A DNA stretch of 64,000 nt from Cyclobacterium sp. (GTDB lineage Bacteria > Bacteroidota > Bacteroidia > Cytophagales > Cyclobacteriaceae). Made by a program: the position numbers and the translations under genes. The notes under the pieces were generated by a model, which had not been told where the DNA came from, did no database searches, and saw only the letters and a list, made by a program, of their open reading frames with translations. Positions 46,575 to 57,284 of the stretch are shown here, one piece after another (position 1 is the first letter of the stretch; each line of letters starts with the position of its first letter). The DNA lies in assembly GCF_014762705.1 (NCBI RefSeq), contig NZ_JABURL010000031.1, forward strand, positions 62,001 through 126,000, read 5' to 3'.

Positions 46575-46610
46575 AAAAAAAAGCACTTACAAGAATATTC
46601 TCGTAAGTGC
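46575..46610 (-). terminator. tRNA-Thr terminator, original host copy
   Basis: A perfect 8-bp stem GCACTTAC/GTAAGTGC with an eight-T run on the leftward strand, directly beyond the remnant tRNA 3' half. It would originally have terminated the tRNA transcript. The spacer 46,156-46,574 shows no gene. Confidence 0.85.
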
Positions 46611-46668
46611 CTGATAATCAAGAGCCTCCTGTCGGGATCGAACCAACGACCTACTGATTACAAGTCAG
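46610..46668. repeat. attL: 59-bp direct repeat with tRNA-Thr 3' half
   Basis: Identical over 59 bp to 57,226-57,284. It contains the tRNA from the anticodon stem-loop to the 3' end plus about a dozen bases downstream, but lacks the D-arm and 5' half, so it is not a functional tRNA. Confidence 0.95.
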
Positions 46669-46783
46669 AATATTACCTATTTTTATATTCTTACTTTATT
46701 ATGCTTTTATATTGATTTTCTGTATTTTAAGTAACTTTTATACTTGTTTACTAATTGTTTATTTATGCAAATAGTGACCCTTT

Positions 46784-46816
46784 TTTGTGCAAATGATATG
46801 CAAATGCTTATCTTTG
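46784..46816 (+). promoter_or_regulatory. Integrase promoter overlapping arm-type sites
   Basis: TTTG (46,784-46,787) and TATCTTTG (46,809-46,816) with a 21-nt spacer match the Bacteroidota promoter. The spacer consists almost entirely of two direct repeats, TGTGCAAATG and TATGCAAATG, 11 bp apart. A further TTATGCAAAT lies upstream. Confidence 0.7.
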
Positions 46817-46833
46817 TTCAAAGCTACTTTGAC

Positions 46834-48123
46834 ATGACACGAAAAAAAGACAAAGCCAAAGATCCGGTAAGGATTAATTTCTATCTTGACACCAGGCGAA
46901 AAAAAGAGAATGGATTCTATCCGGTAAAAATCCGGGTATACGATACCTCCACCAAAAAAGTCCGACTTTACACCACGGATTTTGACCTTTCTGAAAAAGA
47001 CTTCGAGCGAATCCTATTTCCTGAAAAGGGCCAGCGGTTAAGAAAAGAGGAAACCGAAATCCGGGAAGATTTGGAGGAGTTGAAAGTTTACTATTCTGAA
47101 AAAATCAAAGCCTTAAAATCCTTCACCTTTGAAGCATTCGAAAAGTCCCTTTCTATCGTATCCGGGGATTTGCTCAATGTATTTTTTCATTTTGACACAT
47201 ATACCAAAGAACTAAGGGAGTACAATCGAATTTCCACCGCTTCAAGTTATGAATTAAGTATGAAGTCATTAAAAACCTATTTGGGGGATATGACCGGAAA
47301 GGAGCCAAAAAAATTATTATTTCAGGATATCACAGTAAAATTCCTCAACGACTATGAAGCATGGATGACAGAAATAAAAGGTAAGTCTTTAACCACTGTT
47401 GGAATTTACCTTAGAGGACTACGGGTTATATTTAACCAGGCTATTGAAACCAAAGTCATAGACCGGGGAATTTACCCCTTTGGGCCCCGGCGTTATGAAA
47501 TACCTAGCTCCACCAATACCAAAAAGGCGTTCAACTCCGATCAACTTTTAAAGCTACATCAGGCAATGCCGGAAACTCCGGAACAGGAAAAGGCCAAAGA
47601 TTTTTGGTTTTTCTCCTTTGTTTGCAACGGCATGAATATGAAGGATATTCTCCACCTCAAATGGAAAAGCCTAAATGATGGCCAAATAGAATTTGTACGG
47701 GAAAAAACCAAGCGAACGAAAAAGGCCAATTCCAAGCCTATTCAAGTTCCTTTAACGGATTTTGCGAAGTCATTTATTGAGAAGTACGGAACTAAAGAGA
47801 AAAAACCAGACGGGTTTGTTTTCCCAATTCTATCGGACAATGACACAGCCGAAAGACAGCATGCGGTAAAATTGAATTTCATTCGGTTTGTGAACCAGCA
47901 TATTAAGAAGCTGGCAAAGGCCAACGAGTTAAACGAAAATATTTCCACCTATTGGGCCCGACATTCCTTTGCCACCACAGCGGTAAGAAAAAAAGCAAGT
48001 ATGGAATATGTCAGCGAAGCCCTAGGCCATTCGGATCTAAAAACCACAAAAAACTACTTTGCAGGCTTTGAGGACAAGACAAAAAAGGAGATATTAGAGG
48101 ATATTACGGATTTTATGAGGTGA
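46834..48123 (+). CDS. int: Tyrosine recombinase (integrase) of the satellite
   Basis: A 429-aa site-specific recombinase. An N-terminal arm-binding domain (RKKENGFYPVKIRVY), a core-binding SAM-like domain (about 110-210) and a catalytic domain are present. Catalytic residues are seen in 'ARHSFATTAVRKKASMEYVS' (HxxR-like, with His and Arg), 'LGHSDLKTTKNYF' (His and the nucleophilic Tyr). ATG 46,834 is chosen because the promoter -7 box ends 18 nt upstream; an in-frame ATG at 46,744 lies before the promoter. It catalyses insertion at the tRNA-Thr 3' half. Confidence 0.95.
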   Translation: MTRKKDKAKDPVRINFYLDTRRKKENGFYPVKIRVYDTSTKKVRLYTTDFDLSEKDFERILFPEKGQRLRKEETEIREDLEELKVYYSEKIKALKSFTFEAFEKSLSIVSGDLLNVFFHFDTYTKELREYNRISTASSYELSMKSLKTYLGDMTGKEPKKLLFQDITVKFLNDYEAWMTEIKGKSLTTVGIYLRGLRVIFNQAIETKVIDRGIYPFGPRRYEIPSSTNTKKAFNSDQLLKLHQAMPETPEQEKAKDFWFFSFVCNGMNMKDILHLKWKSLNDGQIEFVREKTKRTKKANSKPIQVPLTDFAKSFIEKYGTKEKKPDGFVFPILSDNDTAERQHAVKLNFIRFVNQHIKKLAKANELNENISTYWARHSFATTAVRKKASMEYVSEALGHSDLKTTKNYFAGFEDKTKKEILEDITDFMR

Positions 48124-48273
48124 AAACTGTTTTAAAAGAGGTTCATTTCATTCATTGTATTCATTGGCTCTTTATTACCAATCAAAACTTAATTTTTGAG
48201 GGTACCCCGAAATATAATTTTTGTACAAACCGATCACTGTCAGGGATATAAACGAGCAACCATGTAAAATAAC

Positions 48274-55629: not shown

Positions 55630-56853
55630 ATGAGAAATTCAAGTGTAATTCATTTAAGTAATACCTTTTCTATCAACAAAGAAGTTGAAAAAGAAAACAT
55701 CCTTTCTATTCAAAAAATATTTTTGACGAAGTATTATGAACCTCTTCTCAAAAACATTAATATAATTGAAAATAAATATAATTTTAAGGGCACAGAGTTA
55801 ACATCTTATTTATATTACAAATTTTGTATAGAATATTTTCAGGATTTCAAAAATAATGAGATACCAATTCCAGAGCAATTAGATTTCGAACACAATAACA
55901 AGGTTCATGACGTTATCTCCTTTATAAACAATAACGTTCCAGAATTACAGTTAAAAGAATTATGGTCAAACATTACCCAGCTGACTAGTTTTGTTAATTT
56001 TAATAGAGTTGAATCGGGACTAATTACCAAAGAAACTTTTAACCTACTTTCTAAAAAAGATTTCTACCTTCCAATTTTTGAAAATAACTTCCTAAACCCA
56101 GTTTCTTTCTCAATTTACATTGATTTCCAGTATCCTAAGCTAAATAAGCTCTTTGATTTAATGTTAAGCATAAAAACAAATTGTTTACGAAATTTAGGAT
56201 GGGGTATTGTTAATCAAAACAATCAATCGCTCCTAAATCATGTAAAATGCAATCCAGACAGTAAAAAATATTCAATTAAGAACTGTTGGTATATTTCTAA
56301 AGGTTTGAAGGACAATTTAGGGAATTATATTTTTGTAGAAACAACACAAAGGCCCACGAAAGAAGCAATAAATATCGGATTTGCGACAAAAAACATGCCT
56401 GAAGAAAATAAACCTTCCATAATTGAAAATTCAGCCGTTAAAGACGAGGTCCCAATTTTTGTTTCAGGTAAAAAAGTGATAATTAAATTCATGGATGAAA
56501 ATACTGCTTTAAGGTTGAAGAATCAGACACAAAAAAAATCATATTTTAATTTCAAACAACCAAGTATTCCTAAGATGTTAAAACCAGGGTTCTACAATTT
56601 CAAAAACATGGATGGCAAAAAAATTGATGCCGAGGGCGGTGATTTTTCAGACCAATCATTAGAAATGAAGGAATGGAAAAAGCATTTAAAAAATCAGCGG
56701 AAAATTACATTAGTTTTTTTAATCATTTTTTCAATTTTATTTTTTTGGTATGGTGAAAATGGAAGGTACGAAACCGTACCCGGCGAAATCAATGTCGTTA
56801 TTGACACGAAAACAGGGAAAATTTATTATGAAAGGATTATTAAGCCTAAATAA
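55630..56853 (+). CDS. Satellite cargo protein with C-terminal membrane anchor
   Basis: A 407-aa protein starting MRNSSVIHLSNTFSIN (an alternative start lies at 55,567). The first 350 residues are soluble, A+T-rich in codon use, and unrelated to any family I recognise. A single hydrophobic helix (TLVFLIIFSILFFWYGENG) at about residues 362-380 is followed by a 32-residue tail. The last gene before attR, a typical cargo position. It might be an anti-phage or conversion protein; not established. Confidence 0.75.
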   Translation: MRNSSVIHLSNTFSINKEVEKENILSIQKIFLTKYYEPLLKNINIIENKYNFKGTELTSYLYYKFCIEYFQDFKNNEIPIPEQLDFEHNNKVHDVISFINNNVPELQLKELWSNITQLTSFVNFNRVESGLITKETFNLLSKKDFYLPIFENNFLNPVSFSIYIDFQYPKLNKLFDLMLSIKTNCLRNLGWGIVNQNNQSLLNHVKCNPDSKKYSIKNCWYISKGLKDNLGNYIFVETTQRPTKEAINIGFATKNMPEENKPSIIENSAVKDEVPIFVSGKKVIIKFMDENTALRLKNQTQKKSYFNFKQPSIPKMLKPGFYNFKNMDGKKIDAEGGDFSDQSLEMKEWKKHLKNQRKITLVFLIIFSILFFWYGENGRYETVPGEINVVIDTKTGKIYYERIIKPK

Positions 56854-56960
56854 GTAAGATCATTAAAAGATTGACATTCGACTTAAAATCCAACATCTGA
56901 CATCTATACTATTATTGTTAAAAGCTAAAAAGAAAAGTCAGGGTAATAGCGGAAATAAAA

Positions 56961-57047
56961 ATGCTCCGTGAGGTTCTAGCTGCCAGGGCAAACAAGCCAT
57001 ATAAGAAGGCAGCCAAAAAAAGTAAAATCAGTTATTTGAGAAAATAG
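56961..57047 (+). CDS. Possible 28-aa basic peptide
   Basis: ATG to TAG encodes MLREVLAARANKPYKKAAKK followed by SKISYLRK. No ribosome site is evident. Except for this and the arm sites, the 384-bp spacer up to the tRNA shows no gene. Confidence 0.25.
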   Translation: MLREVLAARANKPYKKAAKKSKISYLRK

Positions 57048-57171
57048 GAATGGGTTTAAAATTATAAAATAAACCAGAACTCGAAAAACTGAAAAGTCAA
57101 ATGCAATACCCAAATCACACGAATTTATTTAGTCGAAATAGTGGATTGAGAAAGGGTTAAGACTCATTTTA

Positions 57172-57192
57172 TGTGCAAATGGTGTGCAAATG
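57172..57192. promoter_or_regulatory. Right arm-type sites of the satellite recombinase
   Basis: Two copies of TGTGCAAATG, 11 bp apart, match the pair in the integrase promoter at 46,786-46,806. They lie 54 bp inside attR. Confidence 0.65.
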
Positions 57193-57226
57193 AAAAAGGC
57201 ACTTACAAGATAATACTTGTAAGTAC
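57193..57226 (-). terminator. Element-carried terminator for tRNA-Thr
   Basis: A stem GTACTTACAAG/CTTGTAAGTGC followed by a T-run on the leftward strand replaces the host terminator at 46,575-46,610. The two hairpins are similar but not identical. Confidence 0.85.
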
Positions 57227-57284
57227 CTGATAATCAAGAGCCTCCTGTCGGGATCGAACCAACGACCTACTGATTACAAGTCAG
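57226..57284. repeat. attR: 59-bp direct repeat in tRNA-Thr
   Basis: The 59-bp copy that forms the 3' half of the intact tRNA-Thr gene. Integration here leaves the tRNA sequence unchanged. Confidence 0.95.

Follow-up and report, generated by a model that had tools for sequence, protein, structure and literature searches.

In a Cyclobacterium (Bacteroidota), a tRNA-Thr gene harbours a 10.6-kb element that is quite likely a phage satellite, which would excise, replicate and redirect the packaging motor of a helper phage to its own DNA. The element occupies positions 46577-57284 of the window, by which we mean the whole stretch of 64,000 nucleotides that was analysed (contig NZ_JABURL010000031.1, positions 62,001 to 126,000); coordinates without a locus label refer to this stretch. 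The reading comes from the sequence and is based on the presence of an integrase, replication genes and a small terminase subunit (TerS), while no phage shell, packaging-motor or conjugation genes were detected. What could be established is the gene set, attachment (att) repeats and empty sites, related islands at varied tRNA genes, the exchange of modules and cargo among them, and the conservation of TerS without the large terminase subunit TerL. A new lineage of TerS-carrying satellites in Bacteroidota is the best reading of these data, and it would work like a phage-inducible chromosomal island (PICI) without being filed as one. An earlier note on this DNA had proposed a PICI-like satellite; the satellite part is supported, but the regulation and gene order differ from those of PICIs and that label was not kept.

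Ends and core genes of the element

The element is bounded by a direct repeat of 92 bp with 93% identity (attL, 46577-46668, and attR, 57193-57284, both plus strand). The perfect core of this repeat, 59 bp at 46610-46668 and 57226-57284, starts and ends where the earlier note had placed the element (46610-57284), and the 92 bp repeat extends it. attL consists of a duplicated 3' half of tRNA-Thr and a hairpin, its final 59 bp being identical to attR. The right repeat copy is the 3' half of the target gene, tRNA-Thr(TGT), which was called at 57238-57311 on the minus strand and stays intact. A second, inner pair of repeats with 88% identity (46781-46806, and 57167-57192 immediately inside attR, both plus strand), which contains GTGCAAATG repeats, is positioned like integrase arm sites and probably represents them. 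Several other elements also carry inner repeat pairs of 21-28 nt alongside their att repeats. The G+C content is 34.9% in the element and 47.3% in the remaining window.

Every assigned gene of the element is directed rightward, in the order integrase, three small open reading frames (ORFs; one of them encoding a DUF6804 protein), TerS, o315, HTH_17, o105, SF3, DUF6371, o194 and o428. The tyrosine recombinase (46744-48123, plus strand) matches Pfam Phage_integrase (1.5e-15) and Phage_int_SAM_5 (7.6e-17), and the first in-frame ATG of its conserved region lies at about 46834. The HTH_17 gene (51354-51695, plus strand; Pfam HTH_17 9.3e-14, phrog_66 5.5e-8) encodes a helix-turn-helix (HTH) DNA-binding protein of the excisionase type, which likely activates excision. 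It is followed by a primase-helicase of superfamily 3 (SF3) with a P4 alpha-like C-terminal family (51935-53455, plus strand; DUF5906 1.6e-16, D5_N 5.2e-7, NCBIfam TIGR01613 primase_Cterm 4e-54) and by a DUF6371 protein with a CxxC-type motif (53292-54593, plus strand; Pfam DUF6371 5.2e-61). The SF3 and DUF6371 genes adjoin each other in related islands too, and the DUF6371 protein is a probable primase partner of SF3. Pfam and NCBIfam matches thus bear out the recombinase, excisionase-type HTH, SF3, DUF6371 and stand-alone TerS that had been read from the sequence before, although the name toprim, which had been coupled with DUF6371, does not occur in the Pfam output.

Searches for virion, packaging and conjugation genes

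When 13 proteins of the element were searched with Pfam, 12 with PHROGs and 10 with NCBIfam, none fell in a TerL, portal, capsid or relaxase family, in agreement with the earlier note. These scans also matched no sid-, psu- or delta-type family, no capsid, portal or protease gene of the capsid-forming PICI (cf-PICI) type and no gene for capsid-size redirection, o315, o194 and o428 falling in no named family; in Pfam there was no match to a CI/Stl-like repressor family.

To cover the relatives, 10 TerL, 7 portal and 1 capsid sequences from Bacteroidota prophages were used as tblastn queries against 36 island-locus stretches, several of which belong to one island, and nothing was found. By PHROGs, the TerL queries from the source loci L104 and L094 were confirmed, as were the L094 portal and capsid; position and size served to assign the remaining 8 TerL and 6 portal queries. 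A leave-one-out control on the 10 source prophage loci recovered TerL in 8, the portal alone in L147 and nothing in L094; these controls are not all independent, since the two loci of each pair, L148/L149 and L157/L158, closely resemble each other or are almost identical. We also searched 80 proteins, drawn from 131 families and singletons but for the most part not from the named core families or the large defence proteins, against Pfam and PHROG, and among the matches listed (25 of 32 and 25 of 52 families) there was no TerL, portal, capsid, tail or relaxase. The genome-wide relaxase search used PF03432 alone, Mob_Pre-like families lying outside it. Of 7 genomes searched, 4 contain a total of 7 matches, all outside the islands. 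The earlier note had reasoned that a relaxase, or a TerL and capsid set, in relatives of the element would point to a mobilizable element or a decayed prophage, and these searches revealed no such relatives.

Mobility and distribution of the islands

The empty tRNA-Thr site that the earlier note had suggested looking for is present in two genomes. Its gene order is VTT - tRNA-Thr - DUF349 in G005 (L106) and GH28 - VTT - tRNA-Thr - DUF349 in G009 (L111), and in both the window's own left-flank genes adjoin the tRNA. In 12 genomes, the site was classified as occupied in 3 and empty in 3, with 6 outside the classification. The other occupants are sister islands of about 7.8 kb in G002 and about 7.6 kb in G010, whose integrases are 85% and 83% identical to that of the window; G011 (L114) is the empty counterpart of the one in G002.

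Of 390 Cyclobacteriaceae genomes, 16 contain this TerS (E<=1e-8), at 21 places in total, and 6 of the 12 Cyclobacterium genomes carry TerS islands. Only one place (G156) lies in a prophage, beside a phrog_2 TerL. At the remaining 20, no TerL, portal or capsid was detected in the stretch examined, two of these stretches (G336) ending at a contig end right after TerS; most other places have genes for integrase, HTH, replication or restriction as neighbours. For ten TerS islands, among them that of the window, the att sequence is duplicated at a tRNA gene: Thr, Val, Arg and Leu once each, Asn four times and Ser twice. Two of the four tRNA-Asn islands form a tandem pair in one genome, and the island AsnA, with a broken TerS, counts among the ten. 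The reduced gene set recurs in TerS islands at many tRNA sites, but the backbone also occurs without this TerS, and one copy of the gene is broken.

The tandem pair at one tRNA-Asn gene (L013, L022 and L014; G004:C9, about 363.5-406 kb) has a broken first TerS with a short TerS fragment beside it and an open second TerS. TerS islands of several genera (L095, L096, L098, L099 and L012) occupy a tRNA-Leu site flanked in each case by a gene whose product starts with MALVTF.SDFG.

The small terminase family

The window's TerS gene, the only Terminase_2 gene of its genome, lies at 49844-50296 on the plus strand and encodes 150 aa (Terminase_2 9e-29, phrog_51 2.3e-26). Its ORF opens at a TTG at 49772, giving 174 aa, and the conserved start is the ATG at 49844. 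The Pfam Terminase_2 domain spans residues 38-167 of the 174-aa ORF and covers 127 of 141 profile positions. When the family profile was compared with the SF6 small terminase (3zqp), it matched at 2.8e-15 over the DNA-binding part and slightly further; in the AlphaFold model, the N-terminal helices are good and the C-terminal half is poor.

Across several genera, the islands hold 15 open TerS genes. In a tree, the 15 island TerS and 16 close database relatives, which were taken without their genomic contexts and include one identical pair, form a single clade with 100/99 support and a long stem. This clade is separate from the sampled phage TerS (every third protein of P0032-P0120), and the distant TerS of G022 falls outside it. 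Ratios of nonsynonymous to synonymous substitution rates (dN/dS) were 0.11-0.22 in 7 pairs by NG86 and 0.18, 0.10 and 0.36 in the 3 of these pairs computed by YN00; dS approaches or exceeds 1 in several pairs, which makes the ratios rough. By these estimates, the island TerS is under purifying selection. As one clade under such selection, the island genes are not fragments of recently lost prophages, and the possibility raised in the earlier note, that terS might always be a remnant of a deleted phage, does not agree with the 15 open genes, the clade or the dN/dS values.

A second small-terminase candidate in the sister islands

The tRNA-Thr sister islands contain no Terminase_2 gene. Instead, a DUF5681-like protein of 94 aa is encoded at the end of the replication block (L049:12982-13266 and L051:11367-11651, both minus strand). 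It contains the motif KGNPGRPKGAKNK, matches phrog_8771, which has no assigned function, at 2.9e-7 and 9.6e-6, and matches DUF5681 below the cut-off. A match in Rhizobium phage RHph_N2 (E 4e-3, 39% covered) lies in the gene directly 5' of TerL, as does one in Aeromonas phage APT65 (E 0.3, 30% covered), which is not significant alone; the TerL neighbourhood was checked in these two records. Judging from position and motif, the protein is a candidate for a second small-terminase class, and the sister islands appear to use it in place of the Terminase_2 TerS. Such a replacement would match the sister islands to other helpers.

The 94-aa family is present in 28 of 390 genomes (E<=1e-4) and recurs in compact islands of Cyclobacteriaceae with integrase, HTH and primase genes. 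Fifteen further loci (L185-L199) show no TerL match; 12 of them have an integrase and the other 3 end at contig ends. Among the 12, 9 have an HTH_17-family match and 1 has a match to a second HTH cluster. att repeats were found at 3 of the 15 loci, two at tRNA-Arg and one at tRNA-Met.

Order-level relatives with tape-measure genes

Extending the TerS search to the order gave hits in 23 of 390 genomes (E<=1e-12, at most 10 candidates scored per genome). Fifteen contexts were inspected: 8 are of the prophage type, with TerL-like genes after TerS (L146-L150, L155, L157 and L158), 4 are of the island type (L145, L152, L153 and L154) and 3 are ambiguous (L151, L156 and L159, the last with a weak TerL match of 0.004). 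Two of the island-type loci, from another family of the order, carry a tape-measure gene (L152:5252-8062, minus strand, 4.5e-42; L153:11735-14092, plus strand, 3.5e-27) beside integrase, HTH, replication genes and TerS, and L152 also has a weak tail-chaperone match (3e-4). By tblastn, no TerL, portal or capsid was found in L152, L153 or L154, and a search for att sites of L145 and L152-L154 gave none that was convincing. A 730-aa protein of L154 matched just one family, without assigned function. According to the available text of a report on PLE11, a proven satellite of the phage-inducible chromosomal island-like element (PLE) group, this satellite assembles chimeric tails from a tape-measure protein and a chaperone that it encodes itself, and putative tmp genes occur in other putative satellites (PMC12987554). 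The tape-measure genes of L152 and L153, as in PLE11, therefore support a satellite reading of the group.

Exchange of replication modules and defence cargo

Twenty elements were compared, 17 of which, including the window's, had been found through TerS, and their proteins were sorted into the 131 families and singletons mentioned above. The TerS family occurs in 15 elements, a count that is biased upward because of the way the 17 were found; the HTH family occurs in 16, where the window's own gene was missed because a longer antisense ORF overlaps it, and the integrase in 14, several stretches stopping before the integrase end. The replication modules are swapped: SF3 is present in 7 and DUF6371 in 8 of the 20 elements. 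Other elements have a protein of 282-324 aa, possibly a replication initiator (7 elements), or two paired proteins of roughly 170 and 240 aa (both present in 3 elements), and one scanned island protein is a DUF3987/BT4734-like primase. SF3 from the window and SF3 from a tRNA-Asn island share 97% identity, and the window's distal genes o194 and o428 are 92% and 87% identical to their counterparts in a tRNA-Val island. The idea that TerS is universal in this backbone was ruled out by the islands G002a, G010b and G002b, which lack it.

Island cargo is often restriction-modification, of types I and IIG by PADLOC, which also recognized an Hma component; the family of the type I methylase is present in 7 of the 20 elements. 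An Hma-type AAA+ ATPase is encoded inside the TerS island of C. jeungdonense (L016:425-3736, minus strand; HmaC model 1.9e-292).

Weighing the satellite reading

As expected of a satellite, the element is mobile, with an integrase and att sites (the 59-bp att and empty sites), and has an incomplete virion gene set (the scans and the 36 island stretches). Its TerS, recognized by homology, would provide the redirecting function. The following course of events would be consistent with its genes. Upon infection by a helper phage, or induction of one, the HTH_17 protein, possibly aided by o315, would turn on integrase-mediated excision at the 59-bp att core, and the SF3 and DUF6371 proteins would copy the resulting circle. 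The satellite TerS would then bind a site in the satellite DNA and recruit the TerL of the helper, whose capsids would take up satellite DNA; the particle would carry it into a new cell, where it would insert at tRNA-Thr.

Several observations weigh against this reading. Encapsidation, induction and an excised circle are predictions from the sequence. The TerS model has modest confidence (pLDDT 69), dS is high in several TerS pairs, TerS is broken in AsnA and a further copy in G102 is degenerate. The backbone is found without any recognized TerS in G002b, at tRNA-Met, and in contig MT835758.1, and the TerS place of C. xiamenense at tRNA-Arg shows restriction genes in its stretch but lacks an integrase and an HTH gene there. 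Virus sequences yielded no close relative. Among 362 phage records, none covers 80% of TerS, and two show 60-80% identity over part of it. In IMG/VR, the TerS matches listed (80 of 150 in one scan) have 28-62% identity over the whole protein or part of it, and a direct search there found no relatives of SF3 or the 94-aa protein. Finally, a resident prophage as helper was looked for in the window's genome and not found with phrog_2 and phrog_9, the TerL families searched.

Among the 12 Cyclobacterium genomes, a phrog_9 TerL turned up in one, G005, and not in the genome of the window. phrog_2 matches occur in all 12, the G005 prophage scoring 52.9 bits, whereas the others reach about 20-27 bits, a level that host ATPases would give. 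With a TerL in so few of these genomes, a resident prophage probably does not serve as the helper. A usually non-resident helper, for example a virulent phage as for PLEs and the phage-inducible chromosomal minimalist islands (PICMIs), fits best by analogy. The G005 prophage (L094, G005:C33), the sole Cyclobacterium prophage with a clear TerL in the 12 genomes, has a TerS of a different class (phrog_83) and portal and capsid genes. In IMG/VR, no close island was found, and a distant SF3 match (26-31%) was present in 6 of at most 88 loci screened. The best match to SF3 in a phage record (48%), MT835758.1, was rejected as a virion genome: apparent chromosomal fimbrial genes adjoin its int-HTH-SF3 island. 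Deposited as 'Bacteriophage sp.', this contig (L279) looks like a chromosomal Bacteroidota contig and carries ATPase-type cargo.

Among the alternatives, the one that survives best, though we consider it unlikely, is an integrative mobilizable element (IME) that is transferred by conjugation with a helper integrative and conjugative element and carries TerS as incidental cargo. Modules of integrase, HTH_17 and primase are common in Bacteroidota IMEs, a similar int-HTH-SF3 backbone without TerS exists, and relaxases are present elsewhere in these genomes. However, the element has no relaxase family match and none of the 7 PF03432 matches lies in an island (PF03432 being the one relaxase family searched across genomes, and no search being aimed at oriT); TerS is under purifying selection across islands of several genera, and the sister islands hold another gene of the TerL-neighbour type instead. 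A mobilizable element is disfavoured by the relaxase result, within the limits of that search.

A defence island, in which TerS would act as a decoy or sensor that interferes with or detects phage packaging, would account for the restriction-modification or Hma components in several relatives, TerS among them. We judge it improbable: in the window island, which has no recognized defence system, TerS stays with integrase, HTH and replication genes, its Terminase_2 domain is nearly complete, and two relatives have tape-measure genes, which defence would not need. A decayed prophage that retained integrase, replication genes and TerS is the least probable alternative and was rejected, for although TerS, primase-helicase and integrase are phage-type families and some order-level TerS relatives lie in prophage-type loci, the reduced gene set recurs at many tRNA sites, the island TerS form a clade with low dN/dS, the 36 stretches hold no trace of TerL, portal or capsid, and the phrog_9 TerL occurs in just one genome of the genus.

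On the satellite reading, a wider proposal can be made tentatively. The islands may belong to a large Bacteroidota satellite superfamily with one backbone (integrase, small ORF, HTH_17 and an interchangeable primase), into which either of two unrelated TerS (Terminase_2 or 94-aa DUF5681-like) or a TerS with a tape-measure gene would be plugged to match different, mostly virulent helpers, while restriction-modification and further defence cargo would pay the host. The gene for packaging specificity would then be a swappable 'helper key'. The same tRNA-Thr site with different packaging genes, together with the tape-measure relatives, allows a direct test in environmental bacteria of whether the choice of TerS determines helper specificity. 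A satellite lineage with type I and type IIG restriction and Hma would also give defence genes a phage-borne route in Bacteroidota, where conjugative elements get most credit for such transfer.

Comparison with known satellites

TerS-based satellites are established in Bacillota and Pseudomonadota, the hosts of the TerS-type PICIs, including the Staphylococcus aureus pathogenicity islands (SaPIs). The element resembles these in its att integrase, primase-helicase, stand-alone TerS, size range, accessory cargo and lack of TerL and structural genes, and in having a TerS for packaging takeover, for which PICIs use TerS or Ppi. It differs in that no divergent regulator of the Stl/Rpp type with opposed transcription was found. 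As the earlier note had remarked, the gene order is unlike that of classical PICIs: all genes point rightward, with terS ahead of the HTH/replication block, between it and the cargo. The Cyclobacteriaceae TerS clade and the DUF6371 partner set it further apart. No known capsid-resizing gene, an optional feature of PICIs, was matched in the element, o315, o194 and o428 being unassigned, and it differs from cf-PICIs in that capsid, portal and protease genes of its own were not found. P4-like satellites share the SF3/D5-type primase-helicase and tRNA integration, but no sid-, psu- or delta-type gene was matched in the element, which has a TerS, whereas P4 is not known to have one. IMEs of the non-replicating Bacteroides unit (NBU) type have a similar logic of integrase, HTH and primase; TerS and the lack of a detected relaxase distinguish the element. 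PLEs of Vibrio cholerae differ in integrase type and gene set, and the window's element has no tape-measure gene.

The likeness to PLEs lies in the tape-measure and tail-chaperone genes of PLE11, as far as described in the available text (PMC12987554), which recall the tape-measure genes of L152 and L153 and the weak chaperone match of L152. PICMIs of Vibrionaceae have an integrase, a small ORF, an AlpA-type HTH and a primase, no capsid remodelling genes and a virulent phage as helper; in contrast to the element with its TerS in tRNA-Thr, PICMI115 lacks a terS homolog and PICMIs insert next to fis, according to the text available (PMC10803314). The terS-less G002b island is the most PICMI-like. 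The accessible part of a 2024 review names P4-like satellites, PICIs, cf-PICIs, PLEs, PICMIs, virion-encapsidated integrative mobile elements (VEIMEs), Tycheposons and a few others, places new types in Cyanobacteria and Actinobacteria and mentions NBU1 (PMC11389934). No description of phage satellites or PICIs in Bacteroidota was found in the open literature as far as its text was accessible, in line with the earlier note's impression that such examples are little described; an earlier one in subscription papers is possible.

Further genes of the element

The all-helical o315 (50312-51259, plus strand; AlphaFold pLDDT 87) belongs to a small family, and in the window element and several relatives its gene is directly 5' of HTH_17. 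A role as capsid, packaging or defence protein is unsupported: Pfam and PADLOC gave no match and Foldseek none at E<=0.001; one PHROG match without assigned function was obtained at 0.024. The gene o105 (51634-51951, plus strand) overlaps the HTH and SF3 genes and has a 96% identical copy in the element AsnB.

The cargo comprises two small hydrophobic ORFs of 135 aa (48274-48681) and 130 aa (49152-49544), neither with a Pfam, PHROG or PADLOC match, the DUF6804 protein of 102 aa between them (48681-48989; Pfam DUF6804 1.7e-31), and distally o194 (54777-55361) and o428 (55567-56853), whose counterparts cited above are in C. roseum, all on the plus strand. No PADLOC model matched this cargo, DUF6804 being outside that search. 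A lipoprotein-like cargo family recurs in both island types (L015:1624-2364, with relatives in L014, L051, L185 and L186), and a Fib_succ_major match among the scanned island proteins probably belongs to it. The DUF6804 cargo is common to the window's tRNA-Thr island and the tRNA-Met island G002b (L052:19920-20231, minus strand), with 70% identity.

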